Shown here in pieces: positions 17,477 through 37,032 of a DNA stretch of 37,032 nucleotides. The stretch's first letter is position 1. Every line of letters starts with the position of its first letter. The position numbers and the translations under genes are program-made. Source of the DNA: an uncultured Faecalibacterium sp. (GTDB lineage Bacteria > Bacillota > Clostridia > Oscillospirales > Ruminococcaceae); the NCBI GenBank assembly GCA_934503275.1, contig CAKSVD010000020.1, positions 1-37,032 of the forward strand. The letters run 5' to 3'. The notes beneath the pieces were generated by a model. The model was not told where the DNA came from. It searched no databases and worked only from the letters and a program-made list of their open reading frames with translations.

Positions 17477-17568
17477 GGAGCATTACTCAAGTGGTCGTAA
17501 GAGGTCGCACTCGAAATGCGATAGGCCGGGAGACCGGTGCCAGGGTTCGACTCCCTGATGCTCCGCCA
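17477..17568 (+). tRNA. tRNA-Ser (CGA anticodon)
   Basis: A 92-base class II tRNA gene with encoded CCA. The acceptor stem GGAGCAT pairs with ATGCTCC; the D-stem CTC/GAG encloses AAGTGGTCGTAA; the anticodon stem TCGCA/TGCGA encloses CTCGAAA, giving anticodon CGA for UCG codons. A long variable arm (GGCCGGGAGACCGG region) and T-loop GGTTCGACTCC follow. Its 3' end is next to an integrase gene and is the probable attachment site of the mobile element. Confidence 0.95.
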
Positions 17569-17656: not shown

Positions 17657-18832
17657 TCATGCTGACGCATTGCCATAGCCCAGCCCCTCCAGCATCGCCT
17701 GTGCAGACGAGAGCTTGGAAGCGTAATCGAGGTGGGCGTAAATATTGGCGGTGGTGGAGAAGTCGCTGTGACCCAACCATTCCTGAATCTGCTTCATGGG
17801 AACGCCGTTTGCCAGAAGAAGGCTGGCGCAGCTGTGGCGCAGATCGTGGAAGCGGATAGGACGCAGACCGTTTTTCTCCAACAGCTTCGGGAACTGCTCG
17901 GAAACGTAGTTGGGACGGATGATGTTCCCAATCTCGTCCACACACAGATAGCCGAGATAATCCCGATTGTAGCTTTTACCGCACAGGCGGCGGTAGGTGT
18001 CCTGCTGACCTTTCAGCATCAGCAGACGGTCACGGATGGGCGGCACAAGGGGCAGCGTCCGCAGGCTGGACTTCGTTTTTGCACGGTCTGCCTGCACCAG
18101 AACCTTTTTGCCGTCGATGGATGCCTGCGTGACGATGTGCTTGATCTCCAACGTGTTGGCTTCAAAGTCGATGGCATCCCATTTCAGACCCAGCACCTCG
18201 CTGCGGCGCAAGCCGTAGAAGGATGCCAGCAGAACCGGGATCTCCAGTTTGGTGCCCTCTGCGACCTCCGTCAAAGCATGAATCTCTTCGGCGCTGTAAT
18301 AGCTGCCTTTGAACGCATTCTTCTTCGGACGCTCGACCTTATCTGCCGGGTTGGTGGGAATCAGGTCGATCTTTACCGCATACTTCAACGCCTTGTGGAT
18401 GTTTGCATGATAATGGATCACCGAATTTGCCTTGACCCGTCCAAGCTGTTTGTTGTAGAAATCCTGCAAGTCGGTGGCTTTCAGGTCTACCAGCTTGATA
18501 TTGCGCTTTCGGAAATACGGAACGATGATGCGCTCCACCGTCCCCTGATAGCTTGCATAGGTCGTGATTTGGACAGTGCTTTTCGTGACTTCCAGCCATT
18601 TCAGCATGAAGTCCGAAAAGAGAATGTCATCGTCTAAGCGAATCTCCGCAGGTGCGGTGGGAACCATGAAGTTCCGCCGACGTTCCAGCAAAAGAGCCTC
18701 GGCTTTCTTCTTGTTCCTCTTGACGGACAGACCGGTGGCTTCCCACTTGGTCTTTCGCTTTCCAGCTGCGTCCTTGTAACTCAGAACGATGTAATAGAAG
18801 TCATTTTTTTCTTGCAGATGCCCTGCTACCAT
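17657..18832 (-). CDS. int: Tyrosine recombinase (integrase)
   Basis: Site-specific recombinase that inserts and excises the element. The start at 18832 (391 residues) has AGGAGG 8 bases upstream. Seen: an N-terminal AP2-like DNA-binding region (about 10-55), a SAM-like core-binding domain (about 70-165) and the catalytic domain from about 180. The full catalytic set is visible: R209 in YGLRRSEVLGLKW, K254 in AKTKSS, H329 and R332 in FHDLRHS, H355 in LGHS, and nucleophile Y365 in NIYAHLD. It belongs to the Tn916-like integrase group. It lies next to the 3' end of tRNA-Ser, the usual target of such enzymes, and is followed by its excisionase-like partner on the same strand. Confidence 0.95.
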   Translation of the reverse strand: MVAGHLQEKNDFYYIVLSYKDAAGKRKTKWEATGLSVKRNKKKAEALLLERRRNFMVPTAPAEIRLDDDILFSDFMLKWLEVTKSTVQITTYASYQGTVERIIVPYFRKRNIKLVDLKATDLQDFYNKQLGRVKANSVIHYHANIHKALKYAVKIDLIPTNPADKVERPKKNAFKGSYYSAEEIHALTEVAEGTKLEIPVLLASFYGLRRSEVLGLKWDAIDFEANTLEIKHIVTQASIDGKKVLVQADRAKTKSSLRTLPLVPPIRDRLLMLKGQQDTYRRLCGKSYNRDYLGYLCVDEIGNIIRPNYVSEQFPKLLEKNGLRPIRFHDLRHSCASLLLANGVPMKQIQEWLGHSDFSTTANIYAHLDYASKLSSAQAMLEGLGYGNASA

Positions 18833-18925
18833 AGTGTTACCTCCTGTCTTTGCATCCACTTGAATATGTAACTTCTGCCGCTGACACCATCAGTGTACCC
18901 AACGGCAGGAGAGAATGCAAGGATG

Positions 18926-22215: not shown

Positions 22216-22227
22216 AATCATGTGTAA

Positions 22228-23424: not shown

Positions 23425-23447
23425 CCCAAAGTCATTCTGCGAATACG

Positions 23448-23630
23448 TTACAAAGTCTGTGTATGTTGAACAGAGCATTTGTTTGGCTCATCGGCTATGG
23501 AGTCATCATCTTTCAAGGGGCGCTGTGCTTGATAGAGCCATCCAAAGCATTCGGGTGGCCACGCTTCCATGTCTTTTTTGATCATTTTCTGAATCAAAAT
23601 TTTAGCGTATCTTTTTGTTGTTACATTCAT
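23448..23630 (-). CDS. agrD: AgrD-like cyclic autoinducer precursor
   Basis: Precursor of a thiolactone quorum-sensing peptide, 60 residues. The start at 23630 follows TGGAGGA at 8 bases and lies 29 bases inside agrB. The three AgrD parts are visible: an amphipathic basic N-terminus (KRYAKILIQKMIKKDM), the core PPECFGWL, and an acidic tail. The sequence C28-F-G-W-L then Y-Q-A-Q-R-P matches the Clostridial AgrD pattern C-x-x-x-x-Y-Q-P-x-x-P. A five-residue ring C28 to L32 is therefore predicted, with a short N-terminal extension. The tail is longer than usual (28 residues) and contains a second Cys (C52). Ring size and trimming are inference. Confidence 0.8.
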   Translation of the reverse strand: MNVTTKRYAKILIQKMIKKDMEAWPPECFGWLYQAQRPLKDDDSIADEPNKCSVQHTQTL

Positions 23631-24210
23631 ATGTAGCATCCTCCATTTTATGCTGGCTGACCTTATTATAATGTGCAACAATCAGAGAAATTGCATCTGC
23701 AATTAAAGCTGCTGCTACACAACGGAACAAATTGCCTAAATAGATTATATCAAAAAGGCAGATTAAATTTATAACAATCAGTCGAATTCGAGACTTCTTT
23801 CTTAACGCACAAATTTCGTCAATTGAAAGATGAATGCACGCATTATTACTTGGAGAATTAAACCAAACAACCAAATCTGATATTATTAGAAATATCGTTG
23901 TGGCAAGTAACGAGAAGCGATTCGAAAACCATAGACAGCAGATTTCCATACACAATGACAAAAACAAACAACGCATATATGAAGTGGCGTGGAAACCATT
24001 AGTACATGCTCTCAAAAACAAAAAACAGAATCCGAACACTATTGTTTGCACAAACCCAAAGAATAAGCCTCCTACCAGTATTAAAAGCGCCCAAGTTACC
24101 CAAGTGGTAAGCCGCTTTAACATACTATATACAAGCCATTCATAAGACTTGGGCTCTATAATGTTGAGAGCAATACATTTTAAAGCAAAACATTTTATTA
24201 ATGAATCCAT
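23602..24210 (-). CDS. agrB: AgrB-like autoinducer-processing protease
   Basis: Integral-membrane cysteine protease of 202 residues that cleaves AgrD at the C-terminal side of the core and forms the thiolactone. The catalytic pair is at the right spacing: H74 in NGFHATS and C81 in MRCLF, seven apart as H77/C84 in Staphylococcus aureus. The family sequence LRACTNGFHA is clear. About five or six hydrophobic segments are visible, including TWALLILVGGLFFGF, and a basic segment LRKKSRIRL. The ribosome site is weak (AAAGAAAGAG). It overlaps agrD by 29 bases. AT-rich composition marks it as acquired. Confidence 0.92.
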   Translation of the reverse strand: MDSLIKCFALKCIALNIIEPKSYEWLVYSMLKRLTTWVTWALLILVGGLFFGFVQTIVFGFCFLFLRACTNGFHATSYMRCLFLSLCMEICCLWFSNRFSLLATTIFLIISDLVVWFNSPSNNACIHLSIDEICALRKKSRIRLIVINLICLFDIIYLGNLFRCVAAALIADAISLIVAHYNKVSQHKMEDATYECNNKKIR

Positions 24211-24303
24211 ATACTCTTTCTTTCCATCGGTTGTTCGTTTTATTTATGATAGCATAAAATATGTGCATTATCTGCTTTTTTGTAACAAAAACGGTATTTT
24301 ATG

Positions 24304-25624
24304 TCATGAAACACGAGAAAATGCTATTTCCCCTGTAAACTGAAACCATCCATCTTTATAAGACATGGCGTAATCACCGCTGTATTTTTTTAGGATAAGT
24401 TTGACATTTTCCAATCCAAAGCCATGCATCTCAGGCTCTTGTTTTGTTGTGGGGATGCTGTCATTTATAATTTCAACTGGAGCAGAGGTATTACGCACCG
24501 TAAAAAAAAAATGTATCATTGGCCACTGCTGTAATCTGCACTATTTTCTTTCCGTTAAGTTTTTGACACGCTTCAATTGCGTTGTCTATCAGATTGGATA
24601 ATAACACTACCATATCGGCTGCATCCAATGAAATCTTTGATAAATCATTTACCTCAAAGTCCATTTCAACACCCACGCTTTCAGCAAATGAAGCCTTTGT
24701 ATTAAATAGCGCATCTAAGATTGGATGGTGTGTGTTAACTAAAAGCAACCGTTCTGACTGAAATTCTTTAACGGAAACAATATACGCCTCTGCTGCGGTG
24801 TATTCATGCGTTTGCAGAAGATTATCAAGTACATTGATATGCGCACGAAAATCATGAACTTTTTTTCGTTGTGCGGCATATAGATTGCTTGCTGCTTCCA
24901 TGTTTTTGATTTGAATTTGAAGTTGCTGATCTAAAGCTAATAATCGTTCCCTTGTTCTTGCAGCCTGCTCTATTTGTTCCAGCAAAAAAAGGACGGCAAT
25001 ATTTGCAATAAAAATCACAATGCAACAGACGGCAATCATTCCATCACTGAGAGGCCGAGCGCTGGATGCATAAAGAAGCACAATAAGCATCAAAAAAGAA
25101 GAAAAAGGATACAAAAAATACAGGCTCAATTGAGAAATCCCTAAAGTAGAAGCCTCACGTGAAGATGGTTTTACCCACGAAAATTTCCGAAAAGCGAGAA
25201 CGATTGTTAACTCAGATGAGTAATACAAAGCGGAGTAAATAACAAACGGAACTTGCGCATAGCCGAATTCGTTTCCTTCAATTCCATAAAGCGTAGACAC
25301 AAGCATTCCCATTCCCATTGAAAGTGCATAATTTAATAAGTACTCTATCGTAACAAGAAAGAAAATATAAATCGATGTTATTTCTTGATATAAAATTCGT
25401 GCCAAGAAAAAGCTCGTTACAAGCACAATAATGATTTTTGTGCTTTGTTCGCCAGAAAACAGCAGACGGTTTAAGAACAATCCGCCAAACGAAAGCAAAA
25501 CAAATGTAAGCAGAACGCCCCAAAAACGCACTCCTGTCCAACGACGTGTTGCAAAAGCATCCAAAAAGAAAACCATGCAGAGAATATCAATCAATGTAAA
25601 TGCAAGACTCAACAAATACTCCAT
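24304..25624 (-). pseudogene. agrC: AgrC-like sensor histidine kinase, frame-shifted at a T10 tract
   Basis: Receptor kinase for the AgrD-derived peptide. The start at 25624 has GAGGAG upstream and overlaps the response regulator gene. Residues 1-215 form six or seven membrane segments. A coiled-coil linker (LDQQLQIQIKNMEA) and dimerisation helix with H257 in KKVHDFRAHINVL follow, then the HPK10-type ATPase N-box LLSNLIDNAIEA. At 24502-24511 ten T residues (- strand) shift the frame and stop the protein at residue 377 (stop ending at 24491). The missing part continues in another frame as TVRNTSAPVEI and contains the G-box MHGFGLENVKLIL (to 24304). Nine Ts would restore one reading frame. Sequencing error, phase variation or slippage are all possible. 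Confidence 0.85.
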
Positions 25625-26328
25625 TTGTTTTCTCCTCTCCAAAGAAGATATTTTTTCTTTAATTCCGCCCGATTCTTTTCGCTGGGTGTCAACACAATTC
25701 CTCCTGCAAGTTGAATTCGATTGTGTTGAAAGATTTCAATGTATTCCATATTAACCAGATAGCTCTTTTGTATTCTTAAAAAGCCCAACATCTCCATTCT
25801 TTTCTCCATGTTGGTCATACTTTCATAGAAGCGATAAGTGGCATGACCGTTATGCACCAAATGCATCACAATAATTCGCCCCTCTGATTCAAGGTATAGA
25901 ATATCGTGAATCGGGATATCAATACTCTCAGCGTTGATTTTGATTGTAACAACTTTACGACATTTTAACATTTCTTGAACAGCAAGATCAAAAAACTCTA
26001 CCAAACGAATTGAAATATCCGATTTTAATAGGTAACGGAACGCCTTGACCTCATATCCTTCGGGCGCATATTGAATAAAATTTGTTACAAAAATAATGAC
26101 GGCTCTCGGTTGAACGAGTCGCAAATTTTTAGCCAATGTAATTCCATTCATGCCAGGCATATCAATGTCCAAAAAGGCAATGTCAATAATTTCCAGAACA
26201 TTCACACATTCAGGCTGCGTATATGAATATAGTTTGGCCGAAATGCATTTTTCTTGGCATCGCGTCTGTAGCATTGTTGTTATCGTATTAACGGCATTTT
26301 CATTATCATCACATACCAAAATATTCAT
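25609..26328 (-). CDS. AgrA-like LytTR response regulator
   Basis: Cytoplasmic response regulator of 239 residues. The start at 26328 has GGAGGG upstream; the earlier in-frame codons do not. The receiver domain (1-125) has the acid pair D7-D8, phosphoacceptor D54 in AFLDIDMPGMNG and K102 in RYLLKSD (Ser replaces the usual Pro after the Lys). The LytTR DNA-binding domain (about 135-235) has DILYLESEGRIIVM, then YESMTNMEKRM, GFLRIQKSYLVNMEYIEI and LTPSEKNR. It is the first gene of the operon and is followed by its kinase with a 16-base overlap. LytTR regulators of peptide circuits usually activate their own operon and peptide/transport genes. Confidence 0.92.
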   Translation of the reverse strand: MNILVCDDNENAVNTITTMLQTRCQEKCISAKLYSYTQPECVNVLEIIDIAFLDIDMPGMNGITLAKNLRLVQPRAVIIFVTNFIQYAPEGYEVKAFRYLLKSDISIRLVEFFDLAVQEMLKCRKVVTIKINAESIDIPIHDILYLESEGRIIVMHLVHNGHATYRFYESMTNMEKRMEMLGFLRIQKSYLVNMEYIEIFQHNRIQLAGGIVLTPSEKNRAELKKKYLLWRGENKWSIC

Positions 26329-26374
26329 CTGTTTTTCCCTCCAACGAACATGGGCCAAACCGGATTCTGAACAT

Positions 26375-26404
26375 AGCATAACTTTCCTACCCCCTACAAG
26401 TCAA
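26375..26404 (-). promoter_or_regulatory. Promoter of the agr operon
   Basis: On the - strand TTGACT, 18 bases and TATGCT, about 45 bases before the response-regulator start codon. Confidence 0.5.
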
Positions 26405-26410
26405 TCGAAG

Positions 26411-26457
26411 TTCAATATAATCGAACATTATATGTAGTATAGTACGATTATATTGAA
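26411..26457. promoter_or_regulatory. Inverted repeat in the agr/XRE divergent promoter
   Basis: TTCAATATAATCG (26411-26423) and CGATTATATTGAA (26445-26457) are perfect 13-bp arms separated by 21 bases. The dyad lies just upstream of the agr -35 box and overlaps the -35 region of the rightward promoter. It is a probable operator for the XRE protein or the LytTR regulator. Confidence 0.6.
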
Positions 26458-26481
26458 ATTTCAAATAGTACACTTTATATA
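26453..26481 (+). promoter_or_regulatory. Promoter of the XRE regulator at 26500
   Basis: TTGAAA (26453-26458), 17 bases and TATATA (26476-26481). A second dyad, AGTACACT (26467-26474) and AGTGTACT (26489-26496), straddles the predicted start and the AGGAG site. The leader would be very short (about 12 bases). Confidence 0.45.
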
Positions 26482-26499
26482 GGATAGGAGTGTACTGGA

Positions 26500-26856
26500 A
26501 TGGAGCATTATTTAGGAGAAAAGCTAAAAAAGCTGAGAGAAAGTCGTGGCTGGACGCAGGCGGACTTGGCTAAACGGTTAAATAAGGCTGTATCCACGGT
26601 CAGTGGATATGAAAGTGATGCACATGCAATTCCGTTGGATGTTCTTTCAAGCATTTCATCCTTATTTAGCATTTCAACAGATGAACTCCTAGGACTGGAT
26701 GCGCCAGAACTGTTGTCTCTTTCAGGACTGACGGAAGATCAAAAGAAAACGTTGGTAAAGCTACGGGATGAATTCTTAGCACCAAGTCAACAGGGAAATG
26801 ACCTTTCTCCACAACAAATGGAGATTTTGCATGATGTTATAAAAGCCTTTGGCTGA
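26500..26856 (+). CDS. XRE-family regulator next to the agr operon
   Basis: DNA-binding protein of 118 residues. The N-terminal HTH is classic (LGEKLKKLRESRGWTQADLA, KRLNKAVSTVSGYESDAHAI), with DVLSSISSLFSISTDELLGL finishing the domain. The C-terminal 45 residues (LTEDQKKTLVKLRDEFLA, SPQQMEILHDVIKAFG) are helical and may dimerise. It is divergent from the agr-like operon, with perfect inverted repeats between them, and precedes the secreted peptide gene. It is a good candidate for a repressor that keeps either side off until the peptide signal accumulates; this is inference. Confidence 0.88.
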   Translation: MEHYLGEKLKKLRESRGWTQADLAKRLNKAVSTVSGYESDAHAIPLDVLSSISSLFSISTDELLGLDAPELLSLSGLTEDQKKTLVKLRDEFLAPSQQGNDLSPQQMEILHDVIKAFG

Positions 26857-26902
26857 TAGCTGGCTTACGATATGGCGCGAGTACGCGGCAATCATCCGTT
26901 CT

Positions 26903-26946
26903 GATATGTCCCCCGATGCTGGAAGTCCAGTGTTGGGGGACATATC
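26903..26946. repeat. Long perfect hairpin downstream of the XRE gene
   Basis: GATATGTCCCCC (26903-26914) and GGGGGACATATC (26935-26946) are 12-bp perfect arms, with an inner CTGG-AAGT-CCAG hairpin. There is no T-run on either side, so an ordinary intrinsic terminator is unlikely; a protein-binding site or RNA processing element is possible. Confidence 0.55.
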
Positions 26947-27005
26947 GTTATATATGAATCCGACTTCGTTACAAATTTTCTCCATTTTGCTACAAAATTG
27001 TGGAC

Positions 27006-27034
27006 TTTAATTAACTCTTGTGCTTTGATATAAT
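27006..27034 (+). promoter_or_regulatory. Possible promoter of the secreted CxH/CxxC protein
   Basis: TTTAAT, 17 bases and consensus TATAAT (27029-27034), about 95 bases before the start codon at 27134. The -35 box is weak, as expected of an activated promoter. Confidence 0.4.
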
Positions 27035-27133
27035 CAATAGTTGTAATAAAATTTGAACTGGAGGTGGTTCCGGTGCAGAAGCAGTGACCATAAGACATAC
27101 ATTGTATAAAAACTCTATACAGGAGGAAGAACA

Positions 27134-27571
27134 ATGAAATCTATGAAAAAGATGTTTGCACTCTTTGCAGTGTTTTCGATGATGGTCACCTGTCTTTCCC
27201 TCTCTTCCTTTGCACTGGAGCCTGACACCGTTCCGTCGGACACCACCCCCGATGCGGACGCTGCTATGAGCGAAACCGATATCGCAGCGGATGCGATTGA
27301 AGAAGATACGCTCGTTATGCCTGAATACGATGCAGTGCTGGATGATGTTATCTCTGAAATTGCTCCAGAGGCAGAGATCGTAGATTCGGTTGAATCTGAT
27401 AATATTTATCCGGCTTGTAAGCACGACTACATTCGTTCTCCCGTTGGAAGCCGTTACCAAGTATATGACTCCGAAAAGAAACAGTATGGTTATGCGCAAG
27501 ATTATATCTATCGTTGCTCTAAATGTGGCGAATATTACTACCATACTGAATATTCTGAATGGCATTATTAA
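27134..27571 (+). CDS. Secreted acidic protein with CxH...CxxC tail
   Basis: I recognise no family. The 145-residue product has a Sec signal (MKSMKKMFALFAVFSMMV core, likely cut after SFA, residue 27). A strongly acidic, disordered-looking stretch follows (about 28-90), then a compact C-terminal part with C95 and H97 (ACKHDY) and C128/C131 (RCSKCGEYYY), rich in Tyr. The CxH...CxxC set suggests a small zinc-ribbon or disulfide domain released from a propeptide. AGGAGG precedes the ATG. It stands between the XRE gene and a FtsX/ATPase exporter, separated from the latter by a terminator. It may be a secreted effector or signal; an ordinary secreted protein cannot be excluded. Confidence 0.72.
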   Translation: MKSMKKMFALFAVFSMMVTCLSLSSFALEPDTVPSDTTPDADAAMSETDIAADAIEEDTLVMPEYDAVLDDVISEIAPEAEIVDSVESDNIYPACKHDYIRSPVGSRYQVYDSEKKQYGYAQDYIYRCSKCGEYYYHTEYSEWHY

Positions 27572-27630
27572 AATCATCTTAGAAGATAGTCATAGTTTTT
27601 TCTGACGATACAACTTGATTATATTCTTCT

Positions 27631-27666
27631 GCCTGCTCACAGGCACTTGTGAGCAGGCGTTTTTTA
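27631..27666 (+). terminator. Terminator between secreted protein and FtsX/ATPase genes
   Basis: GCCTGCTCACA pairs with TGTGAGCAGGC (11 bp), 6-base loop, then six T residues. Permease expression beyond it needs read-through or a separate promoter. Confidence 0.85.
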
Positions 27667-27710
27667 TTAAAGTAGATTTATGCTTGATTATTCTGCAGCG
27701 AGGGTGCGTT

Positions 27711-30206
27711 ATGAAAGTCAAAGAAAACCCATCTCTTATTTTGGCGTTCCATGGGATGCTTGGGCGGAAAAAGCAAACCAGCCTGTTGCTGATCCTGCTG
27801 ACGATGGTTTTTTCGTTTCTGACAGCAGCAACGATTTATTCCAACAGTTCCGCCCAGGCGTTGCAGGATACCCGATGCGAACTGTACGGCGAGTGGCAAT
27901 ATCTGAGATTATCGGATACGGACACGGATGCTGCACAGGTGCGGGAGAATCTGCCTGCGTCCGCAAAAGCCAGCACAACGATTCAGAATGGAATCGTTCT
28001 CGGCGCAGACGATGGCGTGGCGGGCGGGATCGGAACGGTAGACGATACCTTTGCACAGCTGGGGCGTATCGTGCCGATCAGCGGTGATTTCCCCACCCAG
28101 CCCGATGAGATTGCCATGACGACGACGCTGCTGGATGCGCTGGGCTGCTCCTATGACGTAGGGCAGACGGTCACGCTGAAGGTGGCTGCCAATGATTACG
28201 ACCCGCTGGCAGGCTCCGGCGCAGTGATGGAAAAAGCCTATACCCTGTGCGGTGTTCTTCCTGCCTATGATGTTTATTGGAATCTGAACGGCAATCTCAC
28301 CGTCAGCGGCATTGTAGCAGAGCCGCTTGCCTTGGACGGGCAAAAGTTCCAGACATTTTATTACCTGAATGCAGCCGCACCCGTGACCGCTTCGACCGAC
28401 CCTGCTTTAGTGGCAAACGAGTATGCCTACCCGCAGGAGGATACCGTTTCGTTCTCCCTGCGCTTTTTACTGGTCGCAGCGATTCTGGTCAGCTTTTTTG
28501 CAGTGGCGCAGTATTTCCTGATCGTTCTGCACAAGCGTGTACATACCATCAACACCTTCCTGACGCTGGGGGCTAAAAATCGGGATCTCCGGCTTATGTG
28601 CCTGTGGGAAGCGCTTTTTGCCGGGCTTGCAGCAGTTGCTGCAGGGTTTGCACTGGGCTGCGGTGCTGCGGCCGTCGGTCTGGGGCTGCAGAAGCACCTT
28701 TCGTTCTTGGCGGTCCCCGCTGCATCTCTTGTGCCGTTGGCGGTGCTGTTTCTGCTCTCCGTACTGCTGGGTGCACTTTTGCCTGCGGTGCTGGTTCGCC
28801 CGCAGACCGCAAAACCCAAAGAGAAGCCTGCAAAAAAATTCCGCTTGGCACAGCTGCCGCTTGCACCGCAGATCGGTGTCGGCTGCGCGGTATTGCTGAT
28901 CGCCGTCAGTTGTTTGTATGTCGGCTGGCGTGTCATGCTGCCATATGATCTGGATGCACCGTATGCCTGTCTGTCCATCAAGATGAACGGAACCTCCGGG
29001 ATGCCGTTTTCTCTGAAAGAGGATCTCGCTGCATTGCCCGGTGTGGAAGAGGTTTCCGCTGCAATTGATCTGACCGATACCTATACCGTGACGTCAGACA
29101 AGATCCAGTCCAGCAAGATGCTTGCCGATATCTGGGTCAAGGACAACGGTTTCTATACGGACATTCCGAGCTTGCTGCAAAATGCAGAAAGAGGAACGCT
29201 GAACACGACTGTCTGCGCCTTGCCGGAGGACGAACTGCGCCGCATTGCCGCAGATGCCGGCGTTTCGGACGAGAAAATAGAGACACTGCTGTCCGGGGAT
29301 TCTGTTTTGACCCTGTGGGGAGATTGCTATTATGACCCCGCTGCGGATGAATATTATCAGGGCTTCCAACCGGATGGCAGTACGTTGGTTGAACCGGTTT
29401 TTGCGGCCGGAGACAAGTTGAGTATCCAATATCGGCGTTATACCGGGCAGGATGAAGCCGGGAATGAGGTCTACCGGACGTACACCGCCCAGCTGCCCAT
29501 TGCCGGTGTCGTAAAGTCTGCAAGCAATTACACACTGCTGACAACAGACCGGCTCCTTTTCAGCGGCACAATTTTTGTCAGTACGGCTCTTTACCATAAA
29601 ATGTTTGAGAGCGCAGGAAGTTTCTTTATGGAAAAGGAAGGATACAGCAGCCTGAACGTGAAACTGTCCGCTGGCAGCAATTTCTCTTTGCGGCGGTCTA
29701 TTTCCTCCATTGCGACGCGCAGGAATGGTATCCTGAGTGCAGATAACTACGACCTGATCAGCCAGAGCTACACCGAGGGCACACAGAGCGCTTTCCTTGT
29801 CGGCATCCTTGCGGTATTCGGGGTCCTTCTGGGGTGTGCGCTGCTGGTGGTTTTGAATCTTTCAGCTTATGAAGTCCAGCAGCAGCGTCTGTCGCTTCTC
29901 CTGACGCTGGGCGTTTCCCCGAAAAAACTGGTGCTGTCCTATGCAAAGCTGCTGCTCCCGGTCATCGTTGGGACAACGCTGCTTGTGAACATCGTTGTCT
30001 ATGCGGTAGTTTCGCGTATCGTTCCGATCCAGAGCATTCTCGACCTGATCCGTATTCATACAAGCGGACGGGTATATGCGTTCCATAAACCCGTGGGAAG
30101 TCAGATCATGGTCAGCGTTCTGCTGATGGTGTTCTGGCTGTCCGCAGCGTTGCTGCCGATCTTCTCTTTTATTCGTAAAAAAGCATCCAAGGGGGACATC
30201 TTATGA
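27711..30206 (+). CDS. FtsX-like ABC transporter permease
   Basis: Membrane subunit of 831 residues for a MacB/BceB-type ABC system, which usually exports peptides or lipids or removes antimicrobial peptides from the membrane. The start at 27711 (MKVKENPSLILAFHGML) is chosen because the preceding in-frame codons overlap the terminator; its ribosome site (GAGGG) is weak. Topology by eye: one N-terminal helix, an extracellular domain (about 45-245), a bundle of membrane helices (about 250-430), a second large extracellular domain (about 430-690) and three C-terminal helices. The FtsX signature VHTINTFLTLGAKNRDLRLM and the related LSLLLTLGVSPKKLVLSY are present. It overlaps its ATPase gene by 4 bases. 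The GC content is much higher than the flanking cargo. Confidence 0.88.
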   Translation: MKVKENPSLILAFHGMLGRKKQTSLLLILLTMVFSFLTAATIYSNSSAQALQDTRCELYGEWQYLRLSDTDTDAAQVRENLPASAKASTTIQNGIVLGADDGVAGGIGTVDDTFAQLGRIVPISGDFPTQPDEIAMTTTLLDALGCSYDVGQTVTLKVAANDYDPLAGSGAVMEKAYTLCGVLPAYDVYWNLNGNLTVSGIVAEPLALDGQKFQTFYYLNAAAPVTASTDPALVANEYAYPQEDTVSFSLRFLLVAAILVSFFAVAQYFLIVLHKRVHTINTFLTLGAKNRDLRLMCLWEALFAGLAAVAAGFALGCGAAAVGLGLQKHLSFLAVPAASLVPLAVLFLLSVLLGALLPAVLVRPQTAKPKEKPAKKFRLAQLPLAPQIGVGCAVLLIAVSCLYVGWRVMLPYDLDAPYACLSIKMNGTSGMPFSLKEDLAALPGVEEVSAAIDLTDTYTVTSDKIQSSKMLADIWVKDNGFYTDIPSLLQNAERGTLNTTVCALPEDELRRIAADAGVSDEKIETLLSGDSVLTLWGDCYYDPAADEYYQGFQPDGSTLVEPVFAAGDKLSIQYRRYTGQDEAGNEVYRTYTAQLPIAGVVKSASNYTLLTTDRLLFSGTIFVSTALYHKMFESAGSFFMEKEGYSSLNVKLSAGSNFSLRRSISSIATRRNGILSADNYDLISQSYTEGTQSAFLVGILAVFGVLLGCALLVVLNLSAYEVQQQRLSLLLTLGVSPKKLVLSYAKLLLPVIVGTTLLVNIVVYAVVSRIVPIQSILDLIRIHTSGRVYAFHKPVGSQIMVSVLLMVFWLSAALLPIFSFIRKKASKGDIL

Positions 30207-30880
30207 AGGATAAAATTCTGGAAGCTGTACAGATCTCCAAAACCTACGGGGAAGGGGAAAGTGCGGTTCACGCCCTCAAAAATAGCGACCTGACCCTTGA
30301 AAACGGTACATTTGCGTCCATCATCGGTTCCAGCGGCAGCGGAAAATCTACGCTCCTGAAAATTCTGGGAGGACTTTTGCCGCCCACCACCGGTAAGGTG
30401 CTGCTGGACGGTCAGGACATTTATGCAATGAATGCGGAGCAGCTGGCACAGGTGCGGCGGCAAAAGATCGGCTTTATTTTTCAGGATTTCCGCCTGTTCC
30501 CGGAGTACACGGTGCAGGATAATATTCTGACCCCGTTTTATCTGGACCATAGAGCACCGGATGAACAGATGCTCCATAAGCTGACCGGAATCTTGGGCAT
30601 TGCGGGCAAGCTACATTCCCGCCCCGCACAGCTTTCCGGCGGACAGCAGCAGCGTGTGGCAATCGCCCGTGCGCTGATTGCAAAGCCCCACATCGTTTTT
30701 GCAGACGAGCCTACCGGAAATCTGGATACGCGGACGGGTGAGGATACGATGCGGCTGCTGATGGAATGTGCTGCGGAGTTCGGGCAAACGCTTATCGTTG
30801 TCACGCATAACCCGGAAATTGCGCAGAAGGCGCAGCAGATCATTCGGATCGAGGATGGACAAATTCTGAGCAACATTTGA
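30203..30880 (+). CDS. ABC transporter ATPase (MacB/LolD type)
   Basis: Cytoplasmic ATPase of 225 residues driving the upstream permease. Seen: Walker [10 protein letters not shown] (42-50), Q-loop [10 protein letters not shown], signature [15 protein letters not shown], Walker [13 protein letters not shown] and the H-switch VVTHN. The sequence DEPTGNLD marks the LolD/MacB/FtsE subgroup. The start overlaps the permease stop by 4 bases, indicating translational coupling. No membrane fusion protein or outer-membrane partner is present, as expected in a Gram-positive organism. With the CxH/CxxC protein upstream, export of, or protection from, that product is possible but unproven. Confidence 0.93.
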
Positions 30881-31227
30881 TCGATTTGATTGTAGGGTCT
30901 CTCCTTTGCATAATGATTTTCTGACAACTATCATTTTACAGGAGCCCTAGTGGCTTGTCTATTACTGATTCAATTTTGCGAACTCAATTATACGCTATCA
31001 TGGGTAAAGTCTAACCACCGTTTTATTGAGCACTTACGATAAAACAGATTTGAATGTACATGCCCATTCAAAAAAGAATGCGCTCCCCAAAAGTGTACAG
31101 CATGCAAACAACAGATTTGCTGAACAATCAAAATGACGCATTCACTTCGATATTTGGTGAGCGGCTTCACCTCCGTCCAACTTCATAGCGAAAAGTATCA
31201 ACCATGTAAAAAAGATTTTTGAATAAC

Positions 31228-31272
31228 GCCGATGGATTATGAGTGCCCCTCAAAATCCATCGGCTTCTTTTT
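31228..31272 (+). terminator. Terminator between the two cargo modules
   Basis: GCCGATGGATT pairs with AATCCATCGGC, with an inner TGAG/CTCA stem, then TTCTTTTTC. It ends transcription from the left before the AT-rich cassette. Confidence 0.8.
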
Positions 31273-31340
31273 CATTACAATAAAAACCTTGATTATAACA
31301 AAAATGTTGATTTATTGAAAAAGTATTATATCATATGAAC

Positions 31341-31376
31341 AAATCAAAATGTTCAGCTCCGCTATAATTTTGATTT
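31341..31376. promoter_or_regulatory. Operator-like dyad at the cassette promoter
   Basis: AAATCAAAAT (31341-31350) and ATTTTGATTT (31367-31376) are perfect 10-bp arms. The second arm overlaps TATAAT (31363-31368), and no good -35 box is present, which fits a regulated promoter for the thioredoxin/peptide cassette. It does not share sequence with the dyad at 26411. Confidence 0.45.
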
Positions 31377-31437
31377 TGAACGGTCAGACATGATGCTTAA
31401 AGCATTTTGAACCCATTAGGAAAGGACGCTCGACGGT

Positions 31438-32304
31438 ATGAAAAAAGTTGTTGTTGTTCAAAGCGCTATTATTGCGGTGCTATTATTGCTTTCTGGAGTT
31501 TTGGTGATTGCACAGGCAAATGGAATAAGCTTGTCATCCATATTAAATGATTCGAACGTATCATATATTGAATTCGGAGATGAGTTCTCCGGATTTGATT
31601 TATGGGATCATGAAGGTAAAGCCGTGACTAAGATTTCCAAAGGCAAGAAGTACACAGTTACCTTTTATCTCTCCAGTTCCTGTTCAAGCTGTCTTGACAG
31701 TATTTCTGATTTTGAGAGGTTTGCAGCTACCTTTGGTGACCAGATTGATTATGCGATTATTTGGCAGGATAAAATCCCTGATCATTATATAAATAAATAT
31801 TCGCTTGACCCAAGCATCAACTATTCGTTAAATGGGGAAGCTAAATTGTCCACCGCTACTCCGACATTCTTTATACTTGATGATTCTGGATTTGTAATAT
31901 TTAAGGATGTTTCCCGAGAAAATTTGATTGAGAAGCTTATTCTACTTGACGTAACAGATAGCGACGAATTAAAAAGCAACGCCAATAAATATATTGTTGA
32001 TAATTATTCAAATAGCTCATCAAATAAACCCGTGCTTATCTATTTTTACATGCCCGGCTGTTCTGATTGCGATGCCGCAAGCAAATTGTTTGAAAGTAAC
32101 AACGTTTCAGACGATTATGAAATTATCTATATTTATAAATATGATTCGGAGAATGGGGACTACAATATAGACAAAGACAAACTGTTTGGACTGGTTTACG
32201 ATATTAACTGGTATCCTTCATTTATAATGATAGATAAGGGTTCGTACCGAGAAATCGGGGAAACCCCAGTTGAAAACCTTTTATCTGTCATATATCAGCG
32301 GTAA
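31438..32304 (+). CDS. Membrane-anchored protein with two thioredoxin-like folds
   Basis: Exported protein of 288 residues. One N-terminal hydrophobic segment (about 5-27) serves as signal or anchor. The first thioredoxin-like domain (about 45-170) has SSSCSSCLDS (C82, C85) and cis-Pro P142 in TATPTFFILDDSG. The second (about 180-288) has YMPGCSDCDAA (C208, C211) and P260 in WYPSFIMID. Each CxxC therefore has its own cis-Pro loop, so both domains look redox-competent. A membrane-bound double thioredoxin beside a six-cysteine secreted peptide suggests a dedicated disulfide oxidase or isomerase. Low GC. AGGAAAGGA lies upstream of the ATG at somewhat long spacing. No single family name fits. Confidence 0.82.
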   Translation: MKKVVVVQSAIIAVLLLLSGVLVIAQANGISLSSILNDSNVSYIEFGDEFSGFDLWDHEGKAVTKISKGKKYTVTFYLSSSCSSCLDSISDFERFAATFGDQIDYAIIWQDKIPDHYINKYSLDPSINYSLNGEAKLSTATPTFFILDDSGFVIFKDVSRENLIEKLILLDVTDSDELKSNANKYIVDNYSNSSSNKPVLIYFYMPGCSDCDAASKLFESNNVSDDYEIIYIYKYDSENGDYNIDKDKLFGLVYDINWYPSFIMIDKGSYREIGETPVENLLSVIYQR

Positions 32305-32363
32305 TCTTCATGCCACAACATTTGTGTGCTTTCTCGGCTAGTCACACAGAAAGGAGTTCAATA

Positions 32364-32651
32364 ATGACAAATATCTCAAAGGCTGTGAATCGTCTTGTGG
32401 TTGTATGTATGCTATCTGTAATGATTTTCCTTGGGATAATCTGTAACGGTGCAATGCAAGCTAATGCTGCTTGTGGAAATTGGACCACATATAAAACTGG
32501 AAGTCCATACTGCGTGGATAAGGGATGCGGTTTATTCTGGTTAAGTGATACAGAATATCAAAAAGCATATCTTAAGCAAGTATGCACGACATCCAGTGGA
32601 ACCACTAATACTAATTATGATGTACAAGAGAATAGGTTGGGATGCTGTTAA
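32364..32651 (+). CDS. Secreted six-cysteine peptide precursor
   Basis: Precursor of 95 residues. The start at 32364 has AAAGGAG upstream; the in-frame extension to 32310 does not. The signal peptide spans residues 1-35 (hydrophobic VVVCMLSVMIFLGIICNG, cut predicted after MQANA). The 60-residue mature part begins ACGNW, has cysteines at 37, 50, 55, 74, 94 and 95 and ends RLGCC: six cysteines, so up to three disulfides. It is Thr/Ser/Tyr-rich with little charge. I recognise no bacteriocin family. The arrangement (thioredoxin-like protein, Cys-rich peptide, beta-propeller, transporter) recalls, from memory, the Bacteroidetes NVEALA peptide neighbourhoods, though the NVEALA motif itself is absent. 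Confidence 0.75.
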   Translation: MTNISKAVNRLVVVCMLSVMIFLGIICNGAMQANAACGNWTTYKTGSPYCVDKGCGLFWLSDTEYQKAYLKQVCTTSSGTTNTNYDVQENRLGCC

Positions 32652-32906
32652 TAGGGCTGCAATTATGCACATCTAACGGTGGAAGTCTATGTTGGCTTTA
32701 AGCTTTTGCTACAATTTCAAATAAGGAATCGCGATAGTGAATGTTGAGCCCAAACATTTTTCCCGTTCCAATAAAAACTCAATTCTTTATTGCTTGATTG
32801 TGTGACTGGCCGAGAAAACATATAAAAAGTATGAGGATTCAATTTATGAGTATGGATTGTAGTGACAATTGAATTCAATTTGTAGAGTAGTGAGGATACA
32901 AAACAG

Positions 32907-33860
32907 ATGAAAAAAATAATACTTGCTATCGTAACTGTTTTGGCCGTGTGCATCATAGGATACACGATGAGCTATCCCGATAGACAAAACATGGCTGCGG
33001 AAGAAATAAGCACAATTGTAAATTCCGACTATTTTTTTGAAAGGAAAATCAAATACTCGCAGCTCGCGGGGATAGCGAACTTTGGATCAAATATAGTTGT
33101 AGCGAGGCCAGATCAAAACTGCCTGGAAATATTGGATAGTTTTGGCGAAATCAAAGGACAGGTTGGTAATTTGGGAAATGCTTCAGGAGAATTTGTTCGC
33201 CCTACAGGTCTGGCTGTCTGGAATGATAGGCTTTATGTTATTGATTCCGGAAATTCTCGTGTTCAAATTCTTGATGAGAATTTTCATACGATTCGGTCAA
33301 TAGAGCTCGACCAATTGTCTGATTCTCAAAACAATTACTATATGGATATCTCAATTTCTGATGATGAAACACTTTTTCTTACTAATAATTGTGCAAATGA
33401 GGAGAAATCTTGTGTTTCTCTAATTGGTTCAAACGGGAAAAAACAAAGGTCTTCAGAACCCTTTTATGGATTTATAACATGTACAGATAAAACCGTCTAC
33501 GGTGTTAATACTTTTGTACATTGGAAAGATTCTCACTCATTTCATGCCAGTGGTGGAGAAAGTTATCTCTATGAAATAACGGCACATGGAAAATTGAAGA
33601 AAGTGTTTGCTTTTCCTTATAAATATTGTCCAACAGATTTTTGCATTGACGGTAAGGATATTTATGTGCTCACATGCGCTTGGGCGCGGTTAGATCATTA
33701 TAAGTTGGACGGCACATATGTTGAAACCTTAATAGAATTTGAAGAATTATCTCCGGAATCTTATCTTGTACGTACTGAAGATGGATTTTGGGTATCTGAT
33801 GCTACACAAGGCACTCTCTATCATATAAAACGCTCAAATTCTCCCTCTGAGGTATCTTGA
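32907..33860 (+). CDS. Secreted beta-propeller (NHL-type) protein
   Basis: Exported protein of 317 residues, with an N-terminal hydrophobic segment (about 4-20, no lipobox Cys), so membrane-anchored or secreted. Several blades are visible; the clearest is FVRPTGLAVWNDRLYVIDSG followed by NSRVQILDENF, the NHL repeat. Others are SQLAGIANFGSNIVVARPDQ, PTDFCIDGKDIYVLTCAWAR and TEDGFWVSDATQGTLYHIKR. About six blades fit the length. Beta-propellers of this kind bind peptides or ligands and are the usual neighbours of Cys-rich secreted peptides in Bacteroidetes. Its stop shares a base with the start of the next gene (TGATG), so it is coupled to the transporter. Low GC. Confidence 0.8.
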   Translation: MKKIILAIVTVLAVCIIGYTMSYPDRQNMAAEEISTIVNSDYFFERKIKYSQLAGIANFGSNIVVARPDQNCLEILDSFGEIKGQVGNLGNASGEFVRPTGLAVWNDRLYVIDSGNSRVQILDENFHTIRSIELDQLSDSQNNYYMDISISDDETLFLTNNCANEEKSCVSLIGSNGKKQRSSEPFYGFITCTDKTVYGVNTFVHWKDSHSFHASGGESYLYEITAHGKLKKVFAFPYKYCPTDFCIDGKDIYVLTCAWARLDHYKLDGTYVETLIEFEELSPESYLVRTEDGFWVSDATQGTLYHIKRSNSPSEVS

Positions 33861-34972
33861 TGAAAACGAATAGTTTTTCTTATTACATTTGGCTTTCAAC
33901 CGTGCAATTTTGTCATGAATTTAAAATCAATGTGATTTTGATTGTTTCTATGGCATTAGGGCTACTGTTCCCTATTTTTTGTCTTGGCAACATTAATGTA
34001 TTCGTACAGAACATCAAGACTATGCGTATTCAGGGGGGAGCAGATACAACCGTGCTTACTTTATATGGCGAAGATGTCGCATTTCAGGATGTTCAAAGAA
34101 CTATACAAAACGTAGGAATAAAGTCGGCAGATTTTGCCCTCATTGCGTATTGCAATAGTACTGTAGACTGGAACGATGAGCGTCACAGTGAGGTGGTCTA
34201 TTATACAACTGAAAACATCACAGACTTTGAAATGTTTGTACCTGTAGCAGGAGAATCCGTATTTTCTAAAAATCAAAATACATGCATTATAGAAAAAACG
34301 GATTTGGAGCAATATGGTGAGTTGTCTATAGGCGATACTGTCACGGTTGACGGTCAAGCATACAAGCTGGCGGGTGTTTATTCTTCTGTGCGCAACAACG
34401 GCAAAATTTTCCTTCCGCTTGCGCCGCAGACCAGTAAAGGCGCTTTACAGTACAGTCGAATCTATTTTCGCAATACGCAACAAAGTGATTTAGAGCGTTT
34501 GTGCACTGCGCTCGAAACCATTGGACTGAAAGTTCGTAGCGTTCGCAATGGTGAGCAGGACTTTCAAAAGCTTCTCAGTCAGTGCATCCAACAGTCAGTT
34601 CTCATATTCAGTGCGGGGGCTGTCAGCCTGCTGTTTGCAGGTCTTAACATTGGGCTCGTGCTTACCGGAAAAATCCTACACAATAAGCGGCTCATTGGCA
34701 TACATATGGCGCTGGGCTCTTCTTACAGCACGGAACTTTTCTCCGCATTGGTAGAAAACCTGTTGTGTTTCGCTGCTGCGTTTATTCTTGATTTGGCGCT
34801 TGTGCAACTTTTGCGGCCAACGGCTCCCCAAACCTTTGCTCTTGCCCTTACTGCTGGCGTATACATCGGAGCGTTTGTCTTCGGAGCAGGAATGGTATTG
34901 CTTGTCACGTGGGCCACCATGCGAAATTTGAAAAGAAGAAAGCTTGTAGAATTGATGGAGAGGGTGTCATGA
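33860..34972 (+). CDS. FtsX-like ABC transporter permease, first of pair
   Basis: Membrane protein of 370 residues in the MacB/FtsX family. The ATG at 33860 overlaps the propeller stop by one base. Topology: one N-terminal helix (INVILIVSMALGLLFPIFCL), a MacB-like periplasmic-type extracellular domain (about 45-245) and three C-terminal helices, including SVLIFSAGAVSLLFAGLNIG and a last AGVYIGAFVFGAGMVLLVTW. The FtsX motif KRLIGIHMALGSSYSTELFS is present. It is half the size of the permease at 27711, which matches the usual four-helix layout, so it probably pairs with the next gene as a heterodimer. Confidence 0.88.
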   Translation: MKTNSFSYYIWLSTVQFCHEFKINVILIVSMALGLLFPIFCLGNINVFVQNIKTMRIQGGADTTVLTLYGEDVAFQDVQRTIQNVGIKSADFALIAYCNSTVDWNDERHSEVVYYTTENITDFEMFVPVAGESVFSKNQNTCIIEKTDLEQYGELSIGDTVTVDGQAYKLAGVYSSVRNNGKIFLPLAPQTSKGALQYSRIYFRNTQQSDLERLCTALETIGLKVRSVRNGEQDFQKLLSQCIQQSVLIFSAGAVSLLFAGLNIGLVLTGKILHNKRLIGIHMALGSSYSTELFSALVENLLCFAAAFILDLALVQLLRPTAPQTFALALTAGVYIGAFVFGAGMVLLVTWATMRNLKRRKLVELMERVS

Positions 34973-36144
34973 TGTTATATCCGCTCTACCGTGCGGTGCA
35001 AAAGCTGTGGCTGAACCGTAAAACCTATCTTTTTCTGCTTATAGAGTTTGTGCTTGGCACGACAGTTGTACTTTGTGGATATTTGTCCGGCAGAGCCGCC
35101 ACATACCGTTTGGAAGCCTACGAAATGCAGAGCAGAAAAAGCAGTATATCCATTCAGTATTATGGCGGCGATGGTCTCAATGCTGCCGTAACGCCTGAAG
35201 ATTATACTCAGTTATGCGAAATATATGGCTCGGAGTATAGCTTTTCATATCTGTTGCTTGAACGAACAATCTATACATTTGAGCTACAAGAGGATAAGGT
35301 GCAAGATGTCATATTTTCTTCTATGGATGAGAACACTTTTGAATTCTTCTTCGGCGTACAGCCAGAACCGGATACGGTTTATTTCGGTGCGCAAATAGAA
35401 AAGGACTTGCCCAACAGATTGTTCTTTTGTCGTGATTGGTTTTTGCTTGATGAACAAGGCGCAACGATAAACGGACAGCTACTGCACACAGCAACCTTAC
35501 CTGACAATTCTGATCTCTTACTATTGAGCGCTATGGAAAGTGAAAATGTGGATACCGCACAGCTTATCGTTTTGCCGTTTTCGCAGCTAAATATGTTGAC
35601 TGCCAATGCTGACGCCCCCATGGCCTATTTGAGCGTATTTTTACAAAGCGGACAGGGTATTGACGATGTACAGAGAATTGCCGATTGGCTACAAAGCCGT
35701 CATCCGTCCTACAGTTATACGGTGTCTGACCAACGCGCGGAACTCAAAAAATCCATCCGCGATTTAACTCAATGGATGGAGCTGTTTGTATGGGTGGCAA
35801 AATGTTCGCTTGTCATTACAACGGTGGGCATCATCGGAGTTTTACTTATCTATGTAGAACAGCGCAGACGAGAATTCGTTATTGCGTTGACTTTGGGGGC
35901 AACACACGGTACGCTTATTTTTGAACTGTTTTGCGAAGTGTTGCTTTTTTCACTTTTGGGAGGCGTAATAAGTTTGCTGTTAACAATATTTATTGCACCG
36001 CAGCTTTCCACTGTGACATTCACAGTGCGGTTTTCCTGGACATGCGCGATACTTGCAATAGGCATGGCATTTGGAATCACGCTTATATGTTGTGTATGTA
36101 CGGTCCTCGGCACGCGTAGTCGCTACCCAACGAAGATTTTATAG
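34969..36144 (+). CDS. FtsX-like ABC transporter permease, second of pair
   Basis: Membrane protein of 391 residues. The start at 34969 overlaps the previous stop by 4 bases (ATGA). It has one N-terminal helix (YLFLLIEFVLGTTVVLCGYL), a large extracellular domain (about 50-270) and three C-terminal helices; the FtsX motif RREFVIALTLGATHGTLIFE lies between the first two of these. The layout is the same as the preceding protein, but the sequences are clearly different, so a heterodimeric permease is expected. ATPase gene follows 17 bases later. The substrate is most likely the Cys-rich peptide or a membrane-active rival of it; this is inference. Confidence 0.88.
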   Translation: MMLYPLYRAVQKLWLNRKTYLFLLIEFVLGTTVVLCGYLSGRAATYRLEAYEMQSRKSSISIQYYGGDGLNAAVTPEDYTQLCEIYGSEYSFSYLLLERTIYTFELQEDKVQDVIFSSMDENTFEFFFGVQPEPDTVYFGAQIEKDLPNRLFFCRDWFLLDEQGATINGQLLHTATLPDNSDLLLLSAMESENVDTAQLIVLPFSQLNMLTANADAPMAYLSVFLQSGQGIDDVQRIADWLQSRHPSYSYTVSDQRAELKKSIRDLTQWMELFVWVAKCSLVITTVGIIGVLLIYVEQRRREFVIALTLGATHGTLIFELFCEVLLFSLLGGVISLLLTIFIAPQLSTVTFTVRFSWTCAILAIGMAFGITLICCVCTVLGTRSRYPTKIL

Positions 36145-36161
36145 CGCTAAAAGGAGCAAAA

Positions 36162-36854
36162 ATGAAACCGATTCTAAAGCTGCAAGATGCAAGTAAAATT
36201 TATCGGCAGGGTGGTGTGAAAACTGTAGGGATCGAGGCGGTAAACCTTGAAATCTATCCTCACGACTTTGTTGCTATTACAGGCCGTTCAGGCTGCGGCA
36301 AATCGACTCTGCTAAACATTTTAGGCTGTATGGATGAACTGACAAGCGGCAGTTATTTCTTTGACGGCGAGGACATTACACGACTGAAAAGTAAAGCCGG
36401 CGCGGCATTACGTAACGAAAAAATTGGTTATGTATTCCAAGCATTCAACTTGGTCAATGAAATTAGCGCGCTTGAAAACGTCTGTATGCCGCTTGGTTAT
36501 GCGGGTGTGTCCAAACGGGAAAGAGATGCGGTTGCACATGAACTGCTCGCACGCGTTGGCATGGCCGAAAAAGCCAACAAGCGACCAGTAAATCTTTCTG
36601 GCGGCGAACAACAGCGCGTTGCCATTGCAAGAGCGCTGGCTCGTTCGCCGCGTGTGTTACTGGCCGATGAACCTACCGGCAACTTAGACAAAGCTAACAG
36701 CCTCGCCATTATGGAACTGTTTTCCAGTTTCAATCGCAGTGGCATGACGATTGTTATGGTAACACACTCTCCAGATGTGGCAGCGTACGCAAGTAGGCAA
36801 ATACATATCTGTGATGGAAAAATCATTGAATCCTTTTTAGGAGGAACATATTAA
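36162..36854 (+). CDS. ABC transporter ATPase (MacB type)
   Basis: Cytoplasmic ATPase of 230 residues. Seen: Walker A GRSGCGKST (41-49), Q-loop VFQAFNLVNEISA, signature [15 protein letters not shown], Walker [13 protein letters not shown] and H-switch VMVTHSPD. The subgroup is LolD/MacB/BceA. It follows the two permeases within 17 bases and has AAAGGAG upstream, completing a permease-permease-ATPase transporter. It is a different lineage from the ATPase at 30203 (differing linker and Q-loop), so the two modules are not simple duplicates. Confidence 0.93.
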   Translation: MKPILKLQDASKIYRQGGVKTVGIEAVNLEIYPHDFVAITGRSGCGKSTLLNILGCMDELTSGSYFFDGEDITRLKSKAGAALRNEKIGYVFQAFNLVNEISALENVCMPLGYAGVSKRERDAVAHELLARVGMAEKANKRPVNLSGGEQQRVAIARALARSPRVLLADEPTGNLDKANSLAIMELFSSFNRSGMTIVMVTHSPDVAAYASRQIHICDGKIIESFLGGTY

Positions 36855-37032
36855 TTTGTTTATCTCACTTGGTACAACCAGCGAGGTGATTTATGCGGTT
36901 ATTGATTGAATATCTAACGATAGAATCAAAAGCATAACATTACCAATCAGTACCTGCAAGCAGGGCGTCCGTATATACAAACGCCATTTTTGCTCTGCAA
37001 AATGCTTGTTGGGATAGTCCCAAACCCTTTGT
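36855..37032. other. Right edge, non-coding in this window
   Basis: No long ORF is seen. A 14-codon ORF at 36893 follows GCGAGGTG but is too short to support. Two small dyads lie near the edge: GGCGT...ACGCC (36964-36985) and TTGGGA-TAG-TCCCAA (37009-37023). They resemble sequences found upstream of mobilisation genes in Clostridial elements and could belong to a transfer origin, but the window ends here. Confidence 0.3.

Follow-up and report, generated by a model that had tools for sequence, protein, structure and literature searches.

Results

A six-gene peptide operon in Faecalibacterium

An operon of six genes lies in a 37,032-nucleotide stretch of DNA from an uncultured Faecalibacterium sp. 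(contig CAKSVD010000020.1 of assembly GCA_934503275.1; hereafter the window). It encodes a membrane-anchored double-thioredoxin protein, a secreted cysteine-rich peptide, an NHL-type propeller, two FtsX permeases and a MacB-type ATPase (Table 1). An initial annotation, made from the letters of the window alone, had described six AT-rich genes on one strand, and all six were found on the plus strand, where the guanine plus cytosine content is 0.37-0.45 (2-kb windows) versus 0.54-0.64 over the first 17 kb. The propeller, both permeases and the ATPase that it named were each matched by Pfam. The tight coupling that it claimed for the last four genes is present as well: propeller and FtsX-A overlap at TGATG (33858-33862), FtsX-A and FtsX-B at ATGATG (34969-34974), and a 17-base gap lies upstream of the ATPase gene. 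The peptide and propeller genes are uncoupled, being 255 bases apart.

All three families of a MacB-type (FtsX) ATP-binding cassette (ABC) transporter were matched (PF12704, PF02687 and PF00005), and Pfam also matches the permeases of a related locus, L022. The best NCBIfam model for the ATPase is DarD, at 235.9 bits versus a cut-off of 375. The propeller reaches 25.8 bits in the six-bladed propeller family PF17170, whose cut-off is 22.9. The double-thioredoxin protein has the two CxxC motifs (residues 82-85 and 208-211) and the two cis-proline loops (TPT 141-143 and YPS 259-261) ascribed to it earlier, and the four cysteines and both prolines are invariant in 12 aligned sequences, the window's included. 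Its AlphaFold2 model consists of a membrane anchor and two thioredoxin domains, the first of which agrees with PDB matches and the second with Pfam; among the PDB matches of the first domain, ResA/TlpA-type reductases are as close as oxidases. The fold, the two conserved CxxC motifs and the membrane anchor make it plausible that this protein oxidizes the peptide.

Table 1. Window positions of the peptide operon and of neighboring features
Feature	Position	Strand	Evidence or remark
Membrane-anchored double-thioredoxin protein, 288 residues	31438..32304	+	Thioredoxin_2 1.8e-7; AlphaFold2 predicted local distance difference test (pLDDT) 87.2; 12-sequence alignment
Inverted repeat, upstream arm	32321..32348	+	28 nucleotides, 86% complementary to 32799-32826
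Secreted six-cysteine peptide precursor, 95 residues, C-terminal GCC	32364..32651	+	Framework common to relatives
Inverted repeat, downstream arm	32799..32826	+	Complementarity to upstream arm
Secreted or surface NHL-type propeller	32907..33860	+	NHL 2.4e-8, PF17170 7.3e-6; relatives
FtsX-A permease with MacB-type extracellular domain	33860..34972	+	MacB_PCD 5.3e-8
FtsX-B permease, start 34969 or 34972	34969..36144	+	FtsX 9.5e-16
MacB/LolD/DarD-like ATPase	36162..36854	+	ABC_tran 4.8e-33
tRNA-Ser(cga), probable attachment site	17477..17568	+	Attachment inferred from position beside integrase
Tyrosine integrase of element	17657..18859	-	PF00589 4.4e-23
AgrD-like short open reading frame, possibly linked to control	23448..23630	-	By eye: adjoins agrB, C-terminal region
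AgrB	23602..24210	-	PF04647 2.5e-17
GHKL-type sensor kinase	24491..25642	-	PF14501 3.4e-8, positions 2-41 of 102
LytTR response regulator	25609..26379	-	PF04397 1.4e-13

The six genes form a conserved system

Genes in related loci were named by homology to the window's genes; Pfam was run on the window's six, on the permeases of L022 and, for L020, on the propeller, the thioredoxin protein and the regulators. The six genes are a conserved system: their order is repeated in two genomes of another family (L020 and L036), and a further five genomes carry the set rearranged, in several copies or cut by contig ends. L020 and L036 also have a kinase and a LytTR regulator divergent from the operon (by Pfam in L020, by homology in L036). 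L021 reads peptide, propeller, propeller, thioredoxin, FtsX-A, FtsX-B, ATPase, and L034 (genome G1233) has the same first four genes, apparently intact, followed by a shorter transporter region (L034:10707-12948) in which two long open reading frames had no Pfam match. L022 consists of peptide a, propeller, thioredoxin, peptide b, propeller, FtsX-A, FtsX-B, peptide c and the start of a second FtsX-B; it is probably continued by L049, with the end of FtsX-B, peptide d, FtsX-B and ATPase. An array of this L022/L049 type, minus the b pair, stands on a single contig in L033. L048 retains peptide, propeller, FtsX-A, FtsX-B and ATPase, with a contig end directly upstream of the peptide, and L035 has a cut thioredoxin gene and a propeller at a contig end and another piece on a second contig.

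The initial annotation had proposed counting how often the genes for peptide, propeller and thioredoxin protein co-occur, and these genes were repeatedly found in company. Among eight thioredoxin loci (the window and genome G001 taken as one), the propeller is adjacent or one gene off in 8/8 and the peptide is present in 7/8, the remaining locus being cut by a contig end. In the multi-copy loci, peptides a and b each have their own propeller and peptides c and d their own FtsX-B; the genes for thioredoxin, FtsX-A and ATPase remain in one copy as the peptides multiply. Such pairing is expected if the propeller and FtsX-B recognize the peptide.

The system is patchily distributed (the genome draws overlap, so that the following counts are not additive). 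The thioredoxin profile was matched in 1/394 genomes of the order and 1/398 of the phylum, G001 both times, and in 2/397 genomes of another family in the same class, perhaps Lachnospiraceae. In the genera of those two carriers 4/5 and 2/8 genomes were positive, and over 246 genomes of the carriers' order only the centre genome was. A peptide profile (A6) found 2/378 genomes of that other family, the same two that carry the thioredoxin protein, and 6/14 chosen genomes; A6 was built without four-cysteine variants and therefore missed the G1233 peptide. In six genomes of one carrier genus neither peptide nor thioredoxin was matched by profile. Protein searches returned 11 hits for the thioredoxin protein, including eight relatives 42-49% identical, and five for the propeller, including three relatives 35-37% identical, in both cases without genomic context.

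A predicted beta-rich peptide with a conserved cysteine framework

The mechanically called reading frame of the peptide begins at 32310, and its likely start is the ATG at 32364. With the end of the signal placed by eye between ANA and ACGNW, 60 mature residues with six cysteines remain, as previously described for the window, and two further cysteines lie inside the signal. We collected 13 peptide genes, all of which have GCC or GxCC at the C-terminus, followed by no more than four residues. Ten of them have six mature cysteines in the framework C-x11-13-C-x4-C-x16-19-C-x19-20-CC, with a tryptophan 3-4 residues past the first cysteine (the L049 copy was scored by eye); the spacing is 12-4-18-19 in the window and 12-4-19-20 in L020, at 22-32% identity between the window peptide and its relatives in the mature part. 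Given six cysteines in 60 residues, the framework would arise by chance with a probability of 9.6e-7, and among 2047 open reading frames of 40-250 residues in the collected loci the pattern matches only these peptides. The L048 copy lacks the second cysteine, and the L021 and L034 copies lack the first and fourth together, a joint loss that could reflect a C1-C4 bond.

A full-length profile of ten relatives recovered the window peptide with an E value of 2.5e-6 among 1807 open reading frames, at 25.6 bits versus 23.9 for the best of 20000 controls with a shuffled mature part. Codon changes in four peptide pairs indicate purifying selection (ratio of nonsynonymous to synonymous substitution 0.48, 0.18, 0.14 and 0.11). 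Between genomes G1199 and G1239 the mature peptide is 60% identical, the signal 90% and the partner genes 82-95%; between G1166 and G1233 the peptide is 67% identical, near the 69% of one propeller. An AlphaFold2 model from eight sequences is all beta, with four strands and no helix (pLDDT 90.9, predicted template modeling score 0.65). PDB searches with this model gave no clear match, no Pfam or NCBIfam model matched the window peptide, and six peptides had no Pfam match up to an E value of 10.

Several observations weigh against a dedicated system for a secreted, disulfide-stabilized bacteriocin. A profile of the mature part alone is weak, 54/19972 shuffles scoring as high and 302/20000 when the cysteines are fixed, so that the kinship of the window's mature part rests more on framework, position and partners than on sequence. 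Peptide a of G1166 and G1231 is 99% identical, better conserved than its partners, and fast change of the mature part was seen only in G1199/G1239; taken with the G1166/G1233 pair, this means that fast peptide evolution is not general. The net charge of the mature peptides (-4 to +2) is near neutral or acidic, unlike that of cationic membrane-active peptides. A peptide without a detected thioredoxin gene occurs in G1232 and the reverse in G1230, both at contig ends, and in two metagenome variants, P0003 (10 member sequences) and P0004, the C-terminus is changed and the last cysteine residues are missing. Three of the 13 peptide genes, moreover, did lose cysteines and keep four or five. The claim of a conserved system nevertheless survives the checks for independently occurring genes, an unconserved reading frame and a lost cysteine pattern.

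Another metagenome sequence, P0002, has the start of the thioredoxin protein fused to the mature peptide. P0002, P0003 and P0004 may be genuine or may be artifacts of assembly.

Inverted repeats bracket the peptide gene

Inverted repeats, absent from the initial annotation, flank the peptide gene. One arm precedes the likely ribosome-binding site, within -47 to -16, and the other starts 10-44 bases past the stop codon (148 in the window). A repeat score of at least 10 was reached by 9/13 peptide genes versus 3/173 control genes (called open reading frames of at least 120 residues with full flanks), the window scoring 18 versus a control mean of 7.0; for the L021 and L034 peptide genes an internal methionine was taken as the start. 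Fisher's test gives 2e-10, a value that overstates independence because peptides within one lineage are kin; the units are some four lineages that have repeats and a single one, the c/d copies, that lacks them. The nine positives are every copy outside the FtsX-B-paired c/d positions, and the four c/d copies are without repeats.

Arm sequences differ among the four lineages and complementarity is kept; 4/128 cross-lineage arm swaps also reach a score of 10. Copies a and b of L022 differ at one position that is altered on both arms. In the nine stretches tested, the minimum-energy RNA fold contains the long-range arm pairing, with stretches trimmed close to the arms, which favors the stem.

Discussion

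A proposed dedicated peptide system with a bracketed cistron

Faecalibacterium is among the commonest genera of the human gut, and to our knowledge little is known of competition or signaling among its members. We speculate, at slightly less than even confidence, that the operon is a dedicated system in which a disulfide-stabilized secreted peptide has its own oxidase, is kept from harming its producer by the propeller and the transporter, and is encoded by a stem-looped cistron. Sec would export the precursor, and its signal peptide, as predicted from sequence, would be cleaved off. The double-thioredoxin protein would then form or reshuffle disulfides outside the cell, as its fold and conserved active sites suggest. 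Co-conservation and paired duplications are consistent with a surface propeller that binds the peptide and with a split MacB-type transporter (FtsX-A, FtsX-B and ATPase) that releases the peptide or clears it from the envelope of the producer, which would confer self-protection. Binding by the propeller and export or defense by the transporter had been proposed at the outset; they gain indirect support from the extra peptide copies that are paired with propeller or FtsX-B copies. Finally, a long-range mRNA stem, suggested by complementarity kept despite sequence change, probably loops out the peptide cistron and would give it its own level of processing, stability or translation.

We favor an action of the repeats in RNA, where they may serve RNase III processing, stabilization or dose control. 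They could instead act in DNA, by bounding a peptide cassette that can be exchanged or inverted, an alternative that we regard as unlikely but worth weighing. The repeats do flank the gene on both sides, and in G1199/G1239 the low synonymous divergence of the thioredoxin gene and of the signal beside a diverged mature part suggests local recombination. However, all 13 peptide genes are oriented with the operon, the arms stand close to the ribosome-binding site and, the window excepted, to the stop codon, and a recombinase gene was not seen inside the operons listed.

As for the peptide itself, our tentative first choice, held with a little less than even conviction, is a narrow-spectrum bacteriocin, with signaling and envelope roles as the alternatives. 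We prefer it because of the multi-copy variety, the paired duplications, the patchy distribution and the mobile location. The peptide could also be a signal (a pheromone or alarm) for which the propeller is receptor or scavenger and to which the neighboring kinase and LytTR regulator respond. The divergent GHKL kinase and LytTR genes of L020 and L036, the agr genes about 5 kb away in the window and the near-neutral charge all fit such a role, which we nonetheless hold to be rather improbable: in the stretches listed for L021 and L033 no such regulators adjoin the genes, an AgrA-type consensus pair was looked for upstream and not found, and a 60-residue ligand with three disulfides and an ATP-driven transporter would generally be unusual for a pheromone. 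It is more doubtful still that the peptide serves the envelope as a structural, adhesive or metal-binding component, with its cysteines kept reduced or reshuffled by the thioredoxin protein. A secreted, cysteine-rich peptide and a first thioredoxin domain as near to reductases as to oxidases would suit that role, but the ordered beta model, the conserved cysteine spacing and the joint C1/C4 loss suit disulfides better than metal, and multi-copy variation paired with FtsX-B would be unexpected for a structural protein. We also considered that an unrelated small reading frame merely happens to lie amid common transporter genes, since the initial protein search with the peptide had given just near-identical or altered versions of it (four hits among five candidates). 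Related genes in corresponding places of two families, the improbability of the framework and purifying selection leave this explanation next to no weight, and the conservation of the peptide genes led us to reject it.

What appears new here is the peptide family and the gene combination, and the bracketed cistron surprised us most. We tentatively propose, with a confidence that stops just short of an even chance, a new family of ribosomally made, disulfide-rich beta peptides with a membrane-anchored two-domain oxidase, a surface propeller that would serve peptide binding or immunity and a split MacB-type transporter, whose cistron would be looped out by a stem of drifting sequence and kept pairing, uncoupling peptide dose from that of the machinery. 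A self-contained system with its own folding enzyme would offer directly testable peptides and an example, from Gram-positive anaerobes, of disulfides formed by a dedicated enzyme. Should the bracketed cistron act at the RNA level, it would set the dose of one gene within an operon by simple means.

Comparison with known systems

No description of the gene set was found in the literature, as covered by titles and abstracts among the matches listed, with subscription papers outside the scope. Lactococcin 972-type systems are alike in their Sec-type signal, secreted beta-rich peptide and MacB-like ABC proteins. They differ in that the window has a cysteine-rich peptide, a propeller and a double thioredoxin, and in that the window's ATPase scores 203.1 bits in TIGR03608, under the cut-off of 254.85; neither Pfam nor NCBIfam gave a match to the peptide domain of lactococcin 972. 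Bacteroidetes loci reportedly carry NVEALA peptides beside 6-bladed propellers and TlpA-like proteins, and the operon had been suggested to be a Firmicutes counterpart. The propeller side of this suggestion stood, as the window's protein passes the PF17170 cut-off, while the peptide side did not: the six tested peptides match no Pfam model, PF14055 included, and PF14055 had no match in three carrier genomes. Both kinds of locus combine a propeller with a peptide and a thioredoxin-like partner, and the window's set adds a MacB-type transporter and a double thioredoxin; the word NVEALA was not found in the literature searched.

The logic of a dedicated oxidoreductase is already known, because clusters for sublancin, enterocin F4-9 and TMcin have an oxidoreductase and an essential disulfide. 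Sublancin and enterocin F4-9 have dedicated oxidoreductases and disulfides required for activity (PMC8620827). Like these glycocins, the system has a small secreted peptide, important disulfides and its own oxidoreductase, but the six genes include no glycosyltransferase or peptidase-type ABC gene, and the peptide has a Sec-type signal rather than a leader. TMcin clusters share a dedicated oxidoreductase, an ABC transporter and a disulfide required for activity, whereas TMcin (PMC13252029) has a transmembrane helix and one disulfide and the window peptide has an all-beta model and six cysteines. SdbA of Streptococcus gordonii differs in having a single domain and general substrates, and its bacteriocin loss is attributed to a CiaRH stress response in PMC5112981.

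Laterosporulins and actifensins, defensin-like bacteriocins, also count among the closest known systems. The actifensin/cis-defensin motif is C-X5-12-C-X3-C-X9-10-C-X4-5-C-X-C with an alpha helix (PMC6989792). For the laterosporulin, or trans-defensin-like, class, which is marked by a defensin-like fold and beta-defensin-type disulfide connectivity, the joint C1/C4 loss in two peptides gives no more than a hint. The actifensin/cis-defensin class was rejected for the window peptide, whose cysteine spacing differs and whose model has no helix.

The mobile element and neighboring genes

The mobile-element location given in the initial annotation holds: an integrase lies beside tRNA-Ser, and the same cargo occurs at another site in Faecalibacterium sp. 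I4-1-79 (L015; genome G001), the window from 21147 to 37032 being 98.4% identical to it. There the cargo sits near tRNA-Met and another integrase of the same Pfam family, and genes for a MobA/VirD2-type relaxase, a NikA-like protein and an SNF2-type helicase protein lie to its right; we infer transfer of the element by conjugation. Four genomes of G001's genus, G001 included, share the isocitrate dehydrogenase gene of the window at 96% identity, which places the host in Faecalibacterium or close to it. The operon is cargo of an element common to Faecalibacterium or close hosts. The integration modules differ by host for the same cargo, with tRNA-Ser and one integrase at window 17477-21147 and tRNA-Met and another at L023:5406-10135 of G001; similarity resumes at window 21147.

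In the agr set of the window, AgrB and the LytTR regulator were matched by Pfam and AgrD was recognized by eye only. The kinase stops early, inside its GHKL domain, at 383 residues versus 445 in the intact copy of I4-1-79, a difference that may be due to strain variation or to an error in sequencing. A second export-like group (27134-30880) stands between the agr set and the peptide operon. It consists of a large FtsX permease (27708-30206), an ATPase (30203-30880) and a small secreted acidic protein that has a CxxC near its C-terminus and is matched by no Pfam model.

Farther to the left, a PemK/MazF-type toxin gene (19158-19571; PF02452 3e-32) is on the same strand as a pemK RNA 2.3 kb away (21853-21917; RF02913, 65.4 bits). 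Finally, several small proteins encoded at 12062-17133, three of them in tandem at 15273-17133, have twin-arginine-like RRSFLK signals and lipobox-like cysteines by eye, and one RRSFLK protein that was tested gave a weak TAT_signal match under the cut-off.

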